IMG/VR virus record: IMGVR_UViG_3300021085_000128
Location: 1-31,490 of that record
DNA from: a virus
DNA length: 31,490 nt
Reading direction: 5' to 3' (one strand)
The notes under the pieces were generated by a model. The model was not told where the DNA came from. It did no database searches and was given only the letters and a program-made list of their open reading frames with translations. Below are positions 15,838 through 31,490 of this stretch, in pieces. The first letter of the stretch is position 1; each line of letters begins with the position of its first letter. Position numbers and translations under genes: made by a program.

Positions 15838-15966
15838 ATGGATTACGGAACTTTAAATATTAATTATAAATTTAACGAATTAAACTATAAAGAAATCTTA
15901 GCATACAAAAATTACGAATCAAAACACAAATCATATTATGAAAGAATTTCCATACATAAAATTTAA
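15838..15966 (+). CDS. Small leader ORF before the replication initiator
   Basis: The frame is open from 15784, but that TTG lies inside the promoter box, so the first usable start is ATG 15838. The 42-aa product (MDYGTLNINYKFNELNYKEI...) is rich in Tyr, Asn and Lys. It overlaps the initiator gene by 29 bases and could couple its translation. It may equally be non-coding leader; the sequence is too short and biased to decide. Confidence 0.35.
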   Translation: MDYGTLNINYKFNELNYKEILAYKNYESKHKSYYERISIHKI

Positions 15967-16363
15967 TGTCAATCAATGGCTAACAGGAACTATTGCGTTC
16001 CAAAGGTTAGACGTTCAAGGAGCATACATGAAGGTCTGCTGCTATTATTGGTCAAAAGGTTGCGACTTGCCAAGAGATCATTTTAAATCTATCGTTCCAG
16101 AATATTATAATACATTACTAAAAACAAACTTAATTAAAGTTGTAGAAGGTAAAATTGTAATTGAATGGTTAGACGATATGTACAAAGATAATTTAAAGAG
16201 ATCTAAAATAAATGCAGCTAACGGAAGAAAAGGCGGACTAAAAAAAGCGTTCGCTAAAGATTCGCTTAGCATAAAGAAAAGAGAAGAAAAGAAAATAAAA
16301 GATCCTTACTTGAATTTACAACCAGAAGTTTTAGAAAAATTAAAAAACTTAAAGAATGCTTAG
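15938..16363 (+). CDS. Replication initiator-like protein (DUF1376 family)
   Basis: This 141-aa protein has the pattern of DUF1376 / phage O-like winged-helix proteins: YIKFNVNQWLTGTIAF, GAYMKVCCYYWSKGCDLP, IVIEWLDDMY, then KRSKINAANGRKGG. Residues 101-122 form a charged linker (FAKDSLSIKKREEKK). The C-terminus is a short helix that may contact the helicase. Such proteins bind the origin and load a helicase, and the next gene encodes a DnaB-like ATPase. The DNA coding for the linker contains a repeated element seen again at 22581 and may itself be the origin, as in lambda O. Confidence 0.7.
   Translation: MKEFPYIKFNVNQWLTGTIAFQRLDVQGAYMKVCCYYWSKGCDLPRDHFKSIVPEYYNTLLKTNLIKVVEGKIVIEWLDDMYKDNLKRSKINAANGRKGGLKKAFAKDSLSIKKREEKKIKDPYLNLQPEVLEKLKNLKNA
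16246..16300 (+). other. Origin-like element, copy 1 (two iterons, palindrome, purine tract)
   Basis: AGCGTTCGCT (16246-16255) is a palindrome. TTCGCTA at 16250 and TTCGCTT at 16261 repeat with an 11-base period. AAGCG and CGCTT at its edges are complementary. AGCATA and a purine-only stretch with GAGAAGAAAAGAAAA (16281-16295) follow. The same parts in the same order lie at 22581-22635 in non-coding DNA and a different frame, so the likeness is at DNA rather than protein level. Iterons plus an A-rich tract inside an initiator gene recall lambda ori; origin function is inferred. Confidence 0.5.
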
Positions 16364-17216
16364 CAGTAATAAGGATTCATTAAAGTATTTATTTGACTAC
16401 AAGGATGGTAAAATAAAGAAAGGTTTAGGAATAGGCTGTTTATTAGATGACAACTTTGTATACAAACAAGGTGAGTTTAATATGTTTTTAGGCTTAGACA
16501 ATGTCGGCAAGACTAATTGGATAGTATGGTACTTAACAGCATTAAGTAAATTACATGGCAAGAAGTGGTGCGTTTGGTCTGGAGAAAATAAAGCTGGTCA
16601 AATTAAAAGAGATATAATACAGTTTTGGTCTGGAGAAAGTTTAAAGGAATTAAACAAGAGCGAAATAGAAAACTATCATAATATCATAAATGAGTATTTT
16701 ATTTTTATAGATAATAGAAAACTATACGATCATAAAGACTTACTAAAGATATTTAAAGAAACAGAATGTGATGGTGGTTTTATAGATCCTTTTACTGGAT
16801 TGAATCATAATAGAAAAGTATCGCAGTTTGATAGAAATTATCAGATCTGTAATGATGTAAGAGAATTTTGCAATAGAACAAAGAAGTCAATATTTATTTC
16901 TATACATCCACAAACAGAAGCAGCAAGAAGGGTATTCCCACCAGATCACGATTTGGCTGGTAATATACAACCACCAAGAAAAGCAGATTGCGAAGGTGGT
17001 CAAGTGTTCCCGAATAGAGTAGACAATTTTATTTGCTTACACCGACTAATTTATAGCGAAGCACTTTGGATGCAAACAGAAGTCCATGTATATAAAATAA
17101 AGGATAAAGAAACTGGGGGTTCACCTACAATGCTTGGTAAGCCATTAAGATTTGACTACAATAATGGATTAGGTTTCACAATAGGAGGTAATAATATTTT
17201 AAAACAAAAACAATGA
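16356..17216 (+). CDS. RecA/DnaB-fold ATPase, probable replicative helicase
   Basis: This 286-aa protein has a RecA-type core: Walker A GLDNVGKT (46-53), a glutamate after strand 2 (WSGEN, E77), Walker B GGFIDPF (D144) and a sensor-like ISIHPQTEAA (H184, Q186). A glycine-rich loop (LAGNIQPPRKADCEGGQ) lies where DnaB/Twinkle enzymes bind DNA. The N-terminal domain of bacterial DnaB is missing, so it is a helicase-core form like those next to DUF1376 initiators in other phages. It overlaps the initiator gene by 8 bases. A RadA/Sak4-like role is a less likely alternative. Confidence 0.75.
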   Translation: MLSSNKDSLKYLFDYKDGKIKKGLGIGCLLDDNFVYKQGEFNMFLGLDNVGKTNWIVWYLTALSKLHGKKWCVWSGENKAGQIKRDIIQFWSGESLKELNKSEIENYHNIINEYFIFIDNRKLYDHKDLLKIFKETECDGGFIDPFTGLNHNRKVSQFDRNYQICNDVREFCNRTKKSIFISIHPQTEAARRVFPPDHDLAGNIQPPRKADCEGGQVFPNRVDNFICLHRLIYSEALWMQTEVHVYKIKDKETGGSPTMLGKPLRFDYNNGLGFTIGGNNILKQKQ

Positions 17217-17452
17217 AATACAAATACGAAGACATAAAAAATTTTATGAAGTTTAAAACATGGACTAATAAAGATAAAATAAATACACTTTTAGAAATAG
17301 ACTGTTCGCTTTATGCTCATTTAGGAACAGACTCTACTAAAGCAGAAAAAGAAGAAGTTAAAAGGAAAAGCATAGAGATATACAGAACTATTAAAAAGAT
17401 AGACAAAGAGCTTGGAGATCAATTTTTATTAACGATGAACTTAAAACAATGA
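17213..17452 (+). CDS. Small helical protein, unknown
   Basis: This 79-aa charged helical protein has ATGA overlaps on both sides. It begins MKYKYEDIKNFMKFKTW and has a central KAEKEEVKRKSIEIYRTIKK helix. It has no cysteine motif or membrane segment. Position after the helicase suggests a replication accessory role, but nothing in the sequence confirms it. Confidence 0.55.
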   Translation: MKYKYEDIKNFMKFKTWTNKDKINTLLEIDCSLYAHLGTDSTKAEKEEVKRKSIEIYRTIKKIDKELGDQFLLTMNLKQ

Positions 17453-17709
17453 ATGATTTAGATTTTATACATAGCAAGAATAAATTAGAAATATTAATTC
17501 TAAAGATCGAAAACAAATACAATAATATAAATATACCAGATGAAGCTAAAAGCTCCTTAGATGCTTTGTATCACACCTTAAATCTCATATTAAAGCAAGA
17601 AAATTACATTCAGACTTTGAAAAGTGAAATAATTTCCATAAAATTACAAAATATTGAAGCTTACAAGGAAACTTCAAGACTAAAAAATAAAGTTAAAAAG
17701 ATATTATGA
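17449..17709 (+). CDS. Small coiled-coil protein, unknown
   Basis: This 86-aa protein is almost all helix with heptad hydrophobics (KNKLEILILKIENKYNNINI; YIQTLKSEIISIKLQNIEAY) and a basic end, so it is probably a coiled-coil dimer. It is linked by ATGA to genes on both sides. I do not recognise the family. Confidence 0.5.
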   Translation: MNDLDFIHSKNKLEILILKIENKYNNINIPDEAKSSLDALYHTLNLILKQENYIQTLKSEIISIKLQNIEAYKETSRLKNKVKKIL

Positions 17710-17807
17710 AGGGTTTATTATTAATTACAATTGTATCGCATTTAATTAGTTTTATGTCTGGAATTGTACTTGTGAATATTATAAACAAATATTGTGAAGA
17801 AGATTAA
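17706..17807 (+). CDS. 33-aa membrane peptide
   Basis: ATG 17706 overlaps the preceding stop. The product is one hydrophobic helix (LLLITIVSHLISFMSGIVLV) with a short KYCEED tail. Tiling supports translation; function is unknown. Confidence 0.45.
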   Translation: MKGLLLITIVSHLISFMSGIVLVNIINKYCEED

Positions 17808-17943
17808 AAAATATGAACAATCAGACTTGGAGAATCTTATTACTGATTCTTACATTAGTAATGCTATTAATTACTTCTGCCATACACATCCGAATGACTC
17901 TGAGCTTGGCGCAATAATTAGAAAACACTTTCAAAAGTTATGA
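17794..17943 (+). CDS. 49-aa soluble protein, GTG start
   Basis: GTG 17794 lies within the previous gene's end, and the stop makes an ATGA overlap with the nuclease gene. The product (KKIKKYEQSDLENLITDSYI... CHTHPNDSELGAIIRKHFQK) reads as a small helical protein. A competing frame (ATG 17813-17917) would give a hydrophobic peptide. I prefer this one because it closes the gap exactly and has balanced composition. Function unknown. Confidence 0.5.
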   Translation: MKKIKKYEQSDLENLITDSYISNAINYFCHTHPNDSELGAIIRKHFQKL

Positions 17944-18290
17944 GTTTAAATGCAAATCAAAAGGGTAAAAGGTTCGAGCTAAAAATTGCAAAAGATCTTG
18001 CAAAGAAGTTTGACACCAATATAAGAAGAACACCTAACTCTGGTGGCTTAAGCATAAAGGGCGATATAATGACAACGTCTGGCATATTAAGCGAGTATAG
18101 TTGGGAGTGTAAGAACCAAGAGAAATTAAACATCTGGAAAGCGTTAGAGCAAAGCGAAGGCGATGCAAGGGGAACATTAAAAACTCCTGTTGTAGTGTTT
18201 ACTAAGAATTTTGAAAAGGATTACATTGCCTTACAGTATGATGACTTTGTAAACATATTACTTGAATTAGATGAGTACCGAAGTAAATAG
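17940..18290 (+). CDS. Holliday-junction-resolvase-like nuclease (PD-(D/E)XK)
   Basis: This 116-aa protein is the size of archaeal-type Hjc resolvases. KGKRFELKIAKDL gives the first acidic residue (E13). RRTPNSGGLSIKGDI gives D42. WECKNQ gives the E-x-K pair (E56, K58). These are followed by the helix KALEQSEGDA and strand TPVVVFTKN. Such enzymes cut branched DNA before packaging. It lies between replication and terminase genes as expected. A generic VRR-NUC-type endonuclease is the alternative. Confidence 0.75.
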   Translation: MSLNANQKGKRFELKIAKDLAKKFDTNIRRTPNSGGLSIKGDIMTTSGILSEYSWECKNQEKLNIWKALEQSEGDARGTLKTPVVVFTKNFEKDYIALQYDDFVNILLELDEYRSK

Positions 18291-18780
18291 CATATTAAAG
18301 ATATTAGTTAGAGACGAGGCTATTTGGTTAAACATGGCTGAGGAGATTAGCAGCAATAGTAAAGTGCCAGCAAAAGATTTATTGCATGATTTTTATGTTA
18401 CTTTACACAGTAAAATTGATAATGATAAAGTAAAAATTAACGATATTCTATATAACGATTCTTTAAATAAAGCGTTTATATATAAAATGATGCACAATAT
18501 ATTTATTGATACAGTTAGAGTTGACAGGGAAATAGTTATCCAAAAAGATTTAAAAAACATAGTAGAAGCTGACAACGATAGCTATGTAGATATAGAGAAA
18601 ATGGTTGACGATATAGTAAATGAATTTTACTGGTTTGATAGAAAGCTATTTAATTTATATAGAAAGAAATTCCACAGCATTAGAAAACTATCAGCAGCAA
18701 CCAACATCTCTCACGTTGTAGTATGGAGAACAATTAACAATTGTATTAAAGAAATAAAAAAAAAGATTAATGAAAACTGA
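18271..18780 (+). CDS. Sigma-70-like phage transcription factor
   Basis: This 169-aa protein has the two-domain look of a minimal sigma factor. A region-2-like helical part covers about 28-92 (DLLHDFYVTLHSK ... AFIYKMMHNIFIDTVR). After a linker comes a region-4-like HTH, about 119-163 (FDRKLFNLYRKKFHSIRKLS then ATNISHVVVWRTINNCIKEI). It overlaps the nuclease gene by 20 bases. It could redirect host RNA polymerase to late genes; the shared 15-mer at 1011 and 22699 is a candidate target. A non-sigma HTH regulator is the alternative. Confidence 0.6.
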   Translation: MSTEVNSILKILVRDEAIWLNMAEEISSNSKVPAKDLLHDFYVTLHSKIDNDKVKINDILYNDSLNKAFIYKMMHNIFIDTVRVDREIVIQKDLKNIVEADNDSYVDIEKMVDDIVNEFYWFDRKLFNLYRKKFHSIRKLSAATNISHVVVWRTINNCIKEIKKKINEN

Positions 18781-19036
18781 ATACTTAATTAAGAAAATAG
18801 GTAATGAAGTTATAGACTTGTTATTAGAAAAGAATGCAGCTTACGGAGATACTGCAAACAATCCCTCTAATATATTTAGCAAGTTAGATTCTACCGAAGC
18901 AATCAAAGTCAGAATAGATGACAAGTTAGCAAGAATAAAAAACAAAGGATTAAACGACAAGACAGAAGATACGCTTAGCGATTTAATTGGTTACTTAGTA
19001 TTATTAAAAATAGCATATATAAAAAATGAAAAGTAA
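18770..19036 (+). CDS. Nucleotide modification-associated domain protein (DUF1599 / Nmad1-like)
   Basis: This 88-aa all-helical protein has the motif series KNAAYGDTANNPSNIF, IKVRIDDKLARIKN and EDTLSDLIGYLVLLKIA. These match small DUF1599-type proteins, related to MazG/dUTPase-like NTP pyrophosphohydrolases and often placed in phage DNA-modification loci. The acidic residues in EDTLSDLIGY are the probable metal ligands. It stands three genes before the glycosyltransferase, so a part in nucleotide-pool or base modification is plausible. Confidence 0.6.
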   Translation: MKTEYLIKKIGNEVIDLLLEKNAAYGDTANNPSNIFSKLDSTEAIKVRIDDKLARIKNKGLNDKTEDTLSDLIGYLVLLKIAYIKNEK

Positions 19037-19406
19037 AGGTTTAGGCGATAGCATAGAAAAGGTTACAAAGGCTACAGGAATAAAGAAAGCTACTGACTGG
19101 ATATTTGACAAGTTAGGCAAAGACTGCGGATGCGATGCAAGAAAAGAAAAGCTAAATAAAATGTTTCCTTACAAAGATCCTGAATGTTTAACGGAAGATG
19201 AATACATGTATTTAAAAGGATTCTTTAGTATTAATAAAAACGTAGTTAACAGTCCAGAACAAAAAGAACTATTAAAGATTCACAATAGAGTGTTTAAAAC
19301 AAAACGAGAGACTTCCAGTTGCGGTTCTTGTGTTAAAGGTTTAGTTGATACGATGAAGAGATTATATAACGAATATGAATATGACCGAGAAAATAAAAGC
19401 AATTGA
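19026..19406 (+). CDS. Cys-rich small phage protein (DCGCDxRK motif)
   Basis: This 126-aa protein has GLGDSIEKVTKATGIKKATD, then KDCGCDARKEKLNKMFPY, a helical region with CLTEDEYMYLKGFF, and a later pair SCGSC before a C-terminal helix. The CxC and CxxC groups could bind one metal ion. I know this pattern from many Bacteroidetes and marine phages near replication or terminase genes, but no function is established to my knowledge. It overlaps the previous gene by 11 bases. Confidence 0.6.
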   Translation: MKSKGLGDSIEKVTKATGIKKATDWIFDKLGKDCGCDARKEKLNKMFPYKDPECLTEDEYMYLKGFFSINKNVVNSPEQKELLKIHNRVFKTKRETSSCGSCVKGLVDTMKRLYNEYEYDRENKSN

Positions 19407-19432
19407 AAGAAAGCTATTAAAATTTTTTAAAG

Positions 19433-20038
19433 ATGAAAACACAGAAAGTAAAACTAAGCGAAGTAAAAAGAAATCCAGACAATCCAAGACTGATAAAGGA
19501 TAATAAATTTCATAAGTTAGTAACATCTATTATTGAATTTCCTGAGATGCTGGAGATTAGACCAATAGTTGTTAATGACGATATGGTTGTGCTTGGTGGT
19601 AATATGCGTTTAAAGGCTTGCCAAGAAGCTAAGCTAAGAGAAGTGCCAATTATTAAAGCAAGTAAATTAACAGCGGAACAACAGCGTGAATTTATAGTTA
19701 AAGACAACGTTTCTTTTGGCGAATGGGATTGGGATATGATTGCAAATAAATGGGATTCTGTTGAGTTAGGTGACTTTGGTATGGATGTATGGAAGAACTA
19801 TGATGATGAAGTTAATAAAGTTAATTCTGGAGATGAAAACTCTGAATGGGTTGGTATGCCAGATTTTGAACCAAAGGAAGATGTAGTTAAAATTATTATT
19901 TCTTTTGATACGGAACAAGATAGAGAAGATTTTAACAATAAATATGAATTAAAATATAGTTCACAAAAAGGAAAAACTTGGACAACAAAATATCCATATA
20001 GAAAACAAAAAGACTTGACTTCAATTAGATATGAATAA
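19433..20038 (+). CDS. ParB-like nuclease-domain protein
   Basis: This 201-aa protein has an N-terminal ParB/Srx-type domain of about 90 aa: LSEVKRNPDNPRLIKD, then VVLGGNMRLKACQEA, the usual GGN.R box, followed by EFIVKDNVSFGEWDWDM. The C-terminal 60 residues hold a ferredoxin-like strand-helix pattern (VVKIIISFDTEQDREDFNNK) seen with such phage proteins. Without a ParA or parS it is unlikely to segregate DNA. Phage ParB-like proteins more often accompany DNA-modification or packaging genes, and it overlaps the glycosyltransferase gene by 8 bases. Confidence 0.75.
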   Translation: MKTQKVKLSEVKRNPDNPRLIKDNKFHKLVTSIIEFPEMLEIRPIVVNDDMVVLGGNMRLKACQEAKLREVPIIKASKLTAEQQREFIVKDNVSFGEWDWDMIANKWDSVELGDFGMDVWKNYDDEVNKVNSGDENSEWVGMPDFEPKEDVVKIIISFDTEQDREDFNNKYELKYSSQKGKTWTTKYPYRKQKDLTSIRYE

Positions 20039-20918
20039 ATATCCAATTTATATAGTTTCAAAAGGTAGGTGGGAGAATCCTATGACTGCTAAGTTTTTTA
20101 TTGCAGATGGTGTTGATTTTAAGATATTAGTTGAACCACAAGAGTATGACAACTATTGTAATTCAATAGGCGAAAAATATGTAATAAAATTGCCATTTTC
20201 TAATTTAGGTAAGGGTAGTTATCCAGCCAGAAATTACGCATGGGAAGATAGTATTAAAAATGGTTATGAAAGGCATTGGTGTTTTGATGATAATATAGCA
20301 AGAGTTCGTAGAGTATTTAAAGGGAATAAAATACCTTGTAATTCACTTAAAGCAATAGAAGTTCTTGAGGATTTTACAGATAGATACGAAAACATTGGAA
20401 TAACTGCTTTTAATTATGGTAAATTTGTTGTACCAAGTTCATCAGATAAAAAACCATTTTACATTAATGTTCACGCATATAGTGCTATGTTAATGAAAAA
20501 CAATGTGCCTTATAGATGGAGAATGAAATATAACGAAGATGTGGATTTATGTCTTCAAGTATTACATAATAAATTATGCACAGTTTTATTTAATGCTTTT
20601 GTGGTTGAAAAAATGAGTACAGTTGCAAAAATGAAAGGTGGTAATCAAGATGAACTATATAAAGGTAATGCATACGAAAAGAAAATATTAAAAGCAAGAT
20701 CTTTGGAGGAAGTTTGGCCACAATACGCAGAAACTAAAATAAGATTTAACAGACCACATCATTATGTTAATTGGAAAAAACATTTTAAACATTCCTTAAT
20801 AAGAAGAAAAGACATTGACTGGGATAAAATAAAAAATAAAAAGCATAATATTAAATTGACTAAAGTTAGTAATATTAAAAGTGAAGAACTAAAAAAGTTT
20901 TATAAAGAAAATAAATAA
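20031..20918 (+). CDS. TET-associated-type glycosyltransferase (TAGT family)
   Basis: This 295-aa GT-A-like enzyme begins YPIYIVSKGRW and has ILVEPQEYDNY, LPFSNLGKGSYPARNYAWED, and HWCFDDN (D86-D87) as a DxD-like metal and sugar-nucleotide site. Later YNEDVDLCLQVL (168-178) is a catalytic-acid segment. The KGRW and GSYPARN motifs are, to my knowledge, typical of the TAGT family, which adds sugar to 5-hydroxymethyl-pyrimidines made by TET/JBP oxygenases in phage DNA. No TET/JBP or hydroxymethylase gene is visible here, so the acceptor is open. The C-terminal 45 aa are Lys-rich and may bind DNA. Confidence 0.7.
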   Translation: MNKYPIYIVSKGRWENPMTAKFFIADGVDFKILVEPQEYDNYCNSIGEKYVIKLPFSNLGKGSYPARNYAWEDSIKNGYERHWCFDDNIARVRRVFKGNKIPCNSLKAIEVLEDFTDRYENIGITAFNYGKFVVPSSSDKKPFYINVHAYSAMLMKNNVPYRWRMKYNEDVDLCLQVLHNKLCTVLFNAFVVEKMSTVAKMKGGNQDELYKGNAYEKKILKARSLEEVWPQYAETKIRFNRPHHYVNWKKHFKHSLIRRKDIDWDKIKNKKHNIKLTKVSNIKSEELKKFYKENK

Positions 20919-20919
20919 A

Positions 20920-21270
20920 ATGCCAAACGAAGATAACATAAAAAAACACGAATTTAAAAAAGGTCAAAGCGGAAATCCAAAAGGCAGACCAAAAGGATCT
21001 AAGAACAGAAGCACAATTGCTCGAAGATGGTTAGAAGCTACAAGAAAAGGAAAGAACCCTTTAACTGGTGAAGATGAAGTTTTAACACAAGAAGACATTA
21101 TCACATTAGCTTTAATACGTAAAGCAATGGAAGGCGATGTAGCAGCTTATAAAGCGTTATTAGATTCAGGTTATGGAACAGCAAAAGATACTGTTGATAT
21201 TAATACAAATAATGCTGGTTTTGACTTTGACGAAATGATGAAGAAGTTAAGCAATAATGCTAAATCCTAA
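20920..21270 (+). CDS. Terminase small subunit-like protein (DUF5681 type)
   Basis: This 116-aa protein begins with the DUF5681 box (FKKGQSGNPKGRPKGSKNRS), a basic Gly/Pro-rich DNA-contact segment. A helical part follows (TQEDIITLALIRKAMEGDVA, AAYKALLDSGYG), then an acidic C-terminus (FDFDEMMKKL) that could bind the large subunit. It overlaps the large-subunit gene by 14 bases, as small subunits often do. It would recognise the packaging start site on the concatemer. Confidence 0.75.
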   Translation: MPNEDNIKKHEFKKGQSGNPKGRPKGSKNRSTIARRWLEATRKGKNPLTGEDEVLTQEDIITLALIRKAMEGDVAAYKALLDSGYGTAKDTVDINTNNAGFDFDEMMKKLSNNAKS

Positions 21271-22459
21271 ATTTAATATATTTCCTAATAATACAAGATA
21301 CTATTTATTAACTGGTGGTCGAGGTTCTGGAAAATCATTTGCAGTTGCTTTAAATACTCTCGTACTTTCTTTTGATAATAAATGTCAGCATAAGATCTTA
21401 TTTACAAGGTACACTTTAAGGTCTGCTTCTATTTCTATTATACCAGAGTTTAAAGAAAAGATTGAGTTAATGGAGTGGGATAGTTTATTTCATATAACTA
21501 ACAATGAGATAACTAACCTTGAAACTGGTAGCAAGATTTTATTTAGAGGTATTAAAACAAGCTCAGGGGATCAGACAGCTAACCTTAAGTCATTACAAGG
21601 CATAACCACTTGGATCATTGATGAAGCCGAAGAAATGGTTGACGAAGATGTATTTGACAAGATAGACTTTTCAGTAAGACAGAAAGGAGCAAAGAACAGA
21701 GTTGTAATGGTAATGAATCCATCTACTAAAGAACATTGGATCTATCAAAGATTTTATGAGAATGCTGGAGTGCAAGCTGGTTACTCTGGAATAAAAGGAG
21801 AAACAAGCTACTGTCATTCTACTTACTTGGATAATATAGAACACCTTTCAGAAAGTTATATTAACAGGATTAATGAAATGAAAGAGCGTAGACCTCAACG
21901 CTATAAACATACTATTGAGGGTGCTTGGTTAGAAAAAGCTGAGGGGGTTATATTTAACAACTGGAGTTTAGGAGAGTTTAAAGAAATAGGAAAACCAGTA
22001 TTTGGTCAAGATTATGGATTTAGCAACGATCCTTCAACGCTCGTTAAAACAAGCATAGACAAGGAGAATAAAATAATATATGTTCAATTATGTTTTTATA
22101 AAACACAGCTAACCACAAGCGCACTCTCTCTGTTAAATAAAGAATTTGCACAAAATAATTTAATAGTAGGAGATTCAGCAGAACCAAGATTAATAACAGA
22201 ACTAAGTAGAACCTGTACAGTTGTGCCAGCTATTAAAGGGCAAGGCAGTGTTACTTATGGGATTAGTTTATTACAGGATTATGATTTAATAATTGATCCA
22301 GATAGTACAGATCTAATAAAGGAGCTTAACAATTATGTATGGTTAGAAAAGAAAAGCCAGACACCTTGTGATAATTGGAATCATGCAATAGATGCTTTAC
22401 GATATGCAGTTAGCTATCAATTACAAAACCCAAATCAAGGTGAGTATCATTTTTATTAA
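21257..22459 (+). CDS. terL: Terminase large subunit
   Basis: This 400-aa packaging motor and nuclease has an ATPase domain with Walker A GGRGSGKS (20-27) and Walker B WIIDEAEE (D122, E123). The RNase H-like nuclease domain has D252 in FGQDYGFSND, D306 in VGDSAEP and D379 in WNHAIDALRYAV as metal ligands. Length and motif order match PBSX/Terminase_3-type enzymes. It docks on the portal, hydrolyses ATP to pump DNA, and cuts the concatemer. The largest intergenic gap follows. Confidence 0.95.
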   Translation: MLNPKFNIFPNNTRYYLLTGGRGSGKSFAVALNTLVLSFDNKCQHKILFTRYTLRSASISIIPEFKEKIELMEWDSLFHITNNEITNLETGSKILFRGIKTSSGDQTANLKSLQGITTWIIDEAEEMVDEDVFDKIDFSVRQKGAKNRVVMVMNPSTKEHWIYQRFYENAGVQAGYSGIKGETSYCHSTYLDNIEHLSESYINRINEMKERRPQRYKHTIEGAWLEKAEGVIFNNWSLGEFKEIGKPVFGQDYGFSNDPSTLVKTSIDKENKIIYVQLCFYKTQLTTSALSLLNKEFAQNNLIVGDSAEPRLITELSRTCTVVPAIKGQGSVTYGISLLQDYDLIIDPDSTDLIKELNNYVWLEKKSQTPCDNWNHAIDALRYAVSYQLQNPNQGEYHFY

Positions 22460-22473
22460 TTAAATATTTTTAT

Positions 22474-22481
22474 TATATTTG
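22474..22481 (+). promoter_or_regulatory. Bacteroidetes-type promoter (TATATTTG) for a short RNA
   Basis: TATATTTG, again in the context TTATATTTGA, begins 15 bases after the terL stop. The predicted start near 22488 is followed only 40-80 bases on by a strong terminator. Confidence 0.65.
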
Positions 22482-22487
22482 ACAAAG

Positions 22488-22568
22488 GTATTGGCTTGGG
22501 TGCCATTATTCATTACGTTAATTTTTATTAAAAAGGGTATTCGGCAAAAGAGCGTTACCCTTTTTTTT
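22488..22568 (+). ncRNA. Candidate small RNA (or attenuated leader) between terL and the tail operon
   Basis: A consensus promoter ends at 22481 and a perfect 10-bp terminator ends at 22568, giving a transcript of about 80 nt. No good reading frame starts inside it. A TTG-started frame running through it (22479 onward) begins inside the promoter box and translates the terminator, so it is unlikely. The transcript may be a free regulatory RNA or a leader where termination controls the tail operon. The call rests on signals only. Confidence 0.5.
22530..22568 (+). terminator. Rho-independent terminator with perfect 10-bp stem
   Basis: AAAAAGGGTA (22530-22539) pairs perfectly with TACCCTTTTT (22556-22565) across a 16-base loop, and the T run extends to 22568 (eight T). 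It stands between the promoter at 22474 and the tail operon. Confidence 0.8.
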
Positions 22569-22580
22569 GTTCTTACTTTT

Positions 22581-22640
22581 AGCGTTCGCTACAATTTCGC
22601 TAAGCATATAGATAAGATAAGAGAAGAAAAGAAAAGAACA
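22581..22640 (+). other. Origin-like element, copy 2 (non-coding)
   Basis: AGCGTTCGCT (22581-22590), TTCGCTA at 22585 and again at 22596 (11-base period), AGCATA at 22603, and GAGAAGAAAAGAAAA (22621-22635) follow the same order as at 16246-16295. The outer arms TTAGCG (22579-22584) and CGCTAA (22598-22603) pair. The first copy pairs AAGCG with CGCTT instead, so the bases differ but pairing is kept. It is a candidate second origin, initiator-binding or packaging site. Confidence 0.5.
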
Positions 22641-30989: not shown

Positions 30990-31490
30990 ATGGATATAAT
31001 AGAATTAATATTAGACGAAGATAGTGAAGGTCTAACTGGAATCGAAGCGGTTAGCATTGTCGAGCTACCAGCGATAGAGTCTGACTTTGTAGCACTATCA
31101 GAACAGGAAATTAAATTGGCTAAAGTAGATGGCGAGAAGCGTTTATTAATGGGAGCTGCTTTAATACCCAACAAACCGATCTTTAGAAAGAATGGAGACA
31201 ACACTTTCTATGTTTACTTTTCTGAGAAAACAGTAAGAAGGGCAAGCGAATTGTTTTTCCAAAACAGTATGCAGAATAACGCAACCTTAGAACACGAAAT
31301 GGAGATTAATAACTTGACTGTTGTTGAATCGTGGATTGTAGAAGATACTAAAATGGACAAAACTAACAAGTATGGTTTAAGTGTACCTAAGGGCACTTGG
31401 ATGATCAGTATGAAAGTAGAAAACGAAGACGTTTGGAAGAACTACATAGAAACTGGCAAAGTAAAAGGTTTTAGCATAGAGGGTTTTTTC
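30990..31490 (+). CDS. Head maturation protease, 5' part (partial at window edge)
   Basis: ATG 30990 follows the tape measure by 10 bases with an A-rich leader. The 167 residues here begin MDIIELILDEDSEGLTGIEA, with LPAIESDF and KRLLMGAALIPNKPIFRKNG before the region repeated at the left end. H102 (EHE) and S114 (VES) are candidate catalytic residues of the XkdF-like protease fold. The last codon (31488-31490) joins in frame to base 267, completing a protein of about 350 aa. The gene stands at the head of the capsid module on the circular map. Confidence 0.85.
   Translation, partial: MDIIELILDEDSEGLTGIEAVSIVELPAIESDFVALSEQEIKLAKVDGEKRLLMGAALIPNKPIFRKNGDNTFYVYFSEKTVRRASELFFQNSMQNNATLEHEMEINNLTVVESWIVEDTKMDKTNKYGLSVPKGTWMISMKVENEDVWKNYIETGKVKGFSIEGFF
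31225..31490. repeat. Terminal overlap, right copy
   Basis: This is the direct repeat of bases 1-266, with the five silent differences listed for the left copy. It marks the circular join of the assembly. Confidence 0.9.

Follow-up and report, generated by a model that had tools for sequence, protein, structure and literature searches.

The window analysed here, the whole stretch of viral DNA of 31,490 nt, contains two + strand copies of one element, at 16245-16302 and 22580-22640. From comparison with relatives, both copies are probably (a probability of roughly 0.7) phage replication origins bound by the phage initiator, like oriL and oriR of SPP1. Copy 1 lies inside the ORF at 15938-16363 and copy 2 is noncoding, about 120 nt past the terL stop. 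The two share one orientation and are spaced about 6.3 kb apart. The parts of the element and the genes that matter to it are listed here.

15938..16363, + strand: initiator-like gene (141 aa), directly upstream of the helicase-like gene
16245..16255, + strand: copy 1 box 1 (AAGCGTTCGCT), 11-bp register taken from relatives
16256..16266, + strand: copy 1 box 2 (AAAGATTCGCT), 11-bp register
16267..16276, + strand: copy 1 junction TAGCATAAAG, with AGCATW conserved in all types
16276..16302, + strand: copy 1 purine tract of period 5
16356..17216, + strand: DnaB/primase-helicase-like ATPase gene (PHROG 18375, 1.1e-20; PHROG 19)
17940-18290: RusA-like resolvase
21257..22459, + strand: terL, terminase large subunit (Terminase_3; PF04466, PF17288)
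22530..22568, + strand: terminator-like hairpin between terL and copy 2 (fold z = -3.3)
22580..22590, + strand: copy 2 box 1 (TAGCGTTCGCT), 11-bp register
22591..22601, + strand: copy 2 box 2 (ACAATTTCGCT), 11-bp register
22602..22611, + strand: copy 2 junction AAGCATATAG, with AGCATW conserved in all types
22611..22640, + strand: copy 2 purine tract of period 5, then an easily melted stretch

Local alignment of the two copies gives an ungapped 63-bp match with 52 identical positions (83%). It scores 82, where 2922 random pairs of stretches from the window averaged 25 and never exceeded 62, and this bears out the sequence-only reading, which had the element occurring twice, once in the initiator gene and once after terL. 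The sequence AGCGTTCGCTNNNNNTTCGCTNAGCATA is exact at 16246-16273 and 22581-22608 on the + strand, with 0 expected in shuffles, and the only two arrays of three or more GAWAA-type pentamers in the window are found one at each copy. The complementary arms that had also been described are indeed present in the window, but they are not constant in relatives, where the 11-bp direct repeat is. A hairpin or cruciform was therefore rejected as a conserved feature. Rfam and tRNA scans of the window gave no matches.

The product of 15938-16363 is a putative initiator, based upon the position of its gene and upon its PHROG and DUF1376 matches. It matches PHROG 29280 (1.6e-14) and PHROG 9327, 'primosomal protein' (1.4e-4). 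Its previous assignment as a DUF1376-type protein is not sustained, as the match to PF07120 (E = 0.027, 15.3 bits) is below the Pfam gathering cut-off of 30.1 and the PHROG 'primosomal protein' matches better. A search of solved structures found no credible relative of the initiator, and among GTDB contigs there was no initiator relative that would represent a host or prophage copy. The initiator ORF overlaps the start of the primase/helicase-like ATPase gene.

Several hundred IMG/VR contigs were gathered, of which many were excluded as chance matches. The element in the relatives consists of 2 to 5 boxes of 11 bp, followed by AGCATWAAGA and a period-5 purine tract, (GAWAA)n. The box period is evident at lag 11 (z = 6.5 in-gene and 9.8 noncoding), as is the period of 5 in the purine tract (z = 8.7 in-gene and 13.8 noncoding). 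The boxes themselves differ by lineage. In-gene boxes of type B relatives read GCTTAAGC...CTYAAGCATTAAG, those of L018 are CGCTC...CGCTCAAGCAT, those of L093 are AAGCAATGCTC repeats and those of L311 are ACAGC...GCT repeats; the elements after terL have the same kinds of box as the initiator genes. Boxes and a purine tract can be seen by eye inside the homologous gene of the cultured phages Arctus_1, morran9-1 and phi10:1. Where the in-gene copy lies, the choice of synonymous codons is frozen. In 58 initiator genes, picked by protein similarity alone and not by motif, codon identity at conserved residues is 0.98 in codons 100-115, where the element lies, versus 0.81 in the rest of the gene (p = 2e-5).

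The sequence-only reading had staked its case on the presence of the element in relatives with the same initiator. This search was run, and nearly all of them carry the element within the initiator gene. Copy 1 as a lambda-like in-gene origin is well supported by the comparison. The position relative to the initiator and to terL is mostly kept. Among 39 distinct contigs that have an initiator-like gene, terL and enough sequence past terL, 34 have both copies. In most near-complete records of this initiator class there are two good copies, both on the same strand and separated by 4.5-6.3 kb. IMG/VR was also scanned, without selection, for the pattern AGCATNNAGANAAGANAAGA; at least 18 matches fell in initiator genes, at least 24 no more than 1.3 kb past terL and at least 9 in other places. 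At least 69 further matches were set aside as a coding coincidence in one gene family, read as regA-like from its sequence. Of the matches downstream of terL, at least 7 follow a second terL lineage that is about 26% identical to the window terL by tblastn and has one member confirmed as Terminase_3. The noncoding copy thus follows terL even where terL is strongly diverged. One noncoding element is located away from terL (L271:3700-3780), in a contig whose initiator gene has no in-gene element.

The in-gene and terL-side boxes are more alike within a genome than between genomes (permutation p = 5e-5 for 13 representatives; exact p = 1.5e-4 for eight), based on local alignment of the box regions on both strands and treating representatives as independent despite shared ancestry. 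Recombination between the copies would give the same signal. There are also natural losses. Only the in-gene copy is found in L034, L076 and L088, the last two with just about 1 kb examined past terL. Only the terL-side copy is found in L381 (record G028), where an in-frame gap of 39 nt removes the in-gene element relative to L382. The same gap is present in the independent contigs L389 and L390, neither of which reaches terL. The cultured phage morran9-1 is low-scoring for both copies, though its initiator gene does show boxes followed up by eye together with a purine tract. Since boxes tend to match and rare genomes keep one copy, the copies look like interchangeable origins. Of the roles that had been offered for copy 2, the matching boxes and the loss of either copy favour that of a second origin, a regulatory site has some support from the promoter-like TANNTTTG enriched beside the element, and a packaging signal is the least supported.

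The plan of such an origin is itself known from lambda and SPP1. The window element is a widespread case of it that looks independent. Lambda and the lambdoid phages have one in-gene origin per genome, with iterons longer than those of the window, and we know of no period-5 purine repeat in these origins. To our knowledge, dual origins in tailed phages have largely been a matter of one worked example, SPP1. In lambda and the lambdoid phages, iterons and an AT-rich tract are located in the middle of the initiator gene, and two iterons with the tract are the minimal unwinding unit (PMC7466680). Copy 1 shares this layout, its iterons and its AT-rich tract both falling within the initiator gene. 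In the lactococcal phages TP901-1 and Tuc2009, direct repeats inside the replisome organizer (initiator) gene are the origin (PMC8965321); unlike the two copies of the window, a second origin copy is not mentioned in that paper.

In SPP1, oriL is inside gene 38 and oriR is noncoding; the two are of like organisation and are both bound by gp38 (PMC6316719, PMC3485210). The second origin is thought to stall the fork, triggering the switch to concatemers, and SPP1 also encodes a Holliday junction resolvase (PMC6316719, PMC3485210), for which the window has the RusA-like gene. A comparison of layouts finds in the window an origin-like element in the initiator gene and a second, noncoding element of like organisation. 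By this analogy, both phages would have one origin in the initiator gene and one that is intergenic, each with direct repeats and an unwinding region. The window differs from SPP1 in its 11-bp boxes with a period-5 purine tract and in having its second copy directly after terL, approximately 6 kb from the first, whereas the SPP1 origins are about 13 kb apart. In the bacterial basal unwinding system, DnaA boxes abut the short-period repeat of the DnaA-trio (PMC10797057). This resembles the window element in having double-strand boxes next to a short-period repeat, although there the period is 3 and the protein is DnaA, and here the period is 5 and the protein would be that of the phage. Lag 3 is not raised in the purine tracts of the element.

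It is possible to envisage how such origins might work. The initiator would bind the 11-bp boxes, all on the same side of the helix. The purine tract, which has its purines on the gene-coding strand, could then open together with the easily melted DNA that follows, both being held single-stranded, and the phage helicase from the adjoining gene would be loaded. Each origin would be able, at least in part, to stand in for the other. On the SPP1 analogy only, copy 2 may be a late origin or a fork barrier that aids the switch from circle to concatemer before packaging. A more ambitious proposal, plausible but on balance doubtful as a whole, is that a large phage group, probably with marine Flavobacteriia-like hosts, has two equivalent origins; that the post-terL position has been kept despite strong terL divergence; that the period-5 purine tract is a new unwinding code; and that either copy may be lost by a lineage, so that origin use shifts between coding and noncoding DNA. 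Flavobacteriia are the hosts of the named relatives by initiator, and of some of the named relatives by terL.

Certain points stand against the origin reading, namely the terL-side copies of type D relatives, the terL-side copies that are missing, the promoter-like motifs and the melting of copy 1, which is only moderately easy against the AT-rich genome background. The promoter-like motifs bear on a different explanation, in which copy 1 is the origin and copy 2 is an operator, where bound initiator controls the downstream late structural genes and ties late transcription to replication. Copy 2 does sit between terL and the structural genes. Of 45 post-terL stretches that have the element, 28 contain the Bacteroidota-type TANNTTTG, versus 17 of 64 without the element and 21% of shuffles, mostly 30-130 nt after the element, although these counts ignore the relatedness of the contigs and the window's own TANNTTTG lies upstream of its element. 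An operator is unlikely, as copy 2 keeps the whole origin including a period-5 purine tract that an operator does not need, and a contig exists with the noncoding copy only. The terL-side copy may still have a part in late transcription, by itself or on top of another role.

Type D relatives have had the initiator replaced by an unrelated protein family (MKLTKRKGFNFFRSY..., as at L100:2366-2782). Their initiator genes contain CCCCTA-type boxes of their own and a purine tract, with an apparent period of 6 by eye. Judged from sequence, this is the same design reached with another protein. Of eight type D records with terL, four have a terL-side element, of the type B form, and four do not; the terL-side boxes of those four genomes are unlike the boxes in their own initiator gene. 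The terL-side copy and the initiator are therefore not strictly tied, a strict coupling of the two being contradicted by L185, L191, L196 and L203. This may reflect a recent initiator exchange, recognition that is shared, or a second binding protein. Inhavirus P12024S and P12024L, whose terL is related (53%), encode a VirE-type primase in place of the window-type initiator and show no element after terL.

The persistence of the terL-side copy in four genomes with an unrelated initiator would also suit binding of both copies by another phage or host factor, such as a helicase, a ParB-like protein or a host nucleoid protein, for DNA organisation or segregation rather than the start of replication. 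The window does contain a ParB-like nuclease gene, at 19433-20038. This is nevertheless quite improbable, given that nearly all relatives have the first copy within the initiator gene and that the boxes vary by lineage in step in both copies. A packaging (pac) signal adjoining the terminase genes could account for the post-terL position of copy 2 in two terminase lineages, but with an equal copy in the initiator gene, boxes that follow that copy and some terL contigs without copy 2, it is very improbable. That copy 2 is a non-functional relic, a recombination copy of copy 1, would explain why the copies within one genome resemble each other and is hardly credible for an element that holds the same position in strongly diverged genomes, its period and tract intact.

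With the two copies as origins, the single-copy genomes and lineage-specific boxes make the question of why there should be two testable by comparison and by plasmid assays. The low-complexity, lysine-rich tail of the initiator proteins would then be explained as the origin read through as protein.

The ends of the window, 1-266 and 31225-31490, overlap by 266 nt with 5 mismatches. Such an overlap probably means a circular or terminally redundant genome, nearly complete at about 31.2 kb, and the sequence was probably assembled from a mixed population. Contig ends fall at differing places. GC skew shows a steady rise, which reflects gene orientation, almost every gene being on the same strand.

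The post-terL hairpin is seen in the window and in L001, L096, L105, L118 and L034. Its loop TCGGCAAAAGAGCG is conserved, its stem varies (GGGTA/TACCC, GTAGGTA/TACCTAC) and a T run follows; it occurs with and without the element. The stretch at 18271-18780 weakly matches a family of RNA polymerase sigma factors (PHROG 1740, 1e-4). The ParB-like protein matches several PHROGs, as a nuclease or methyltransferase-type protein. Beside it is a TET-associated glycosyltransferase gene at 20031-20918 (PF20691, 1.7e-39), which suggests that the phage DNA may be hypermodified.
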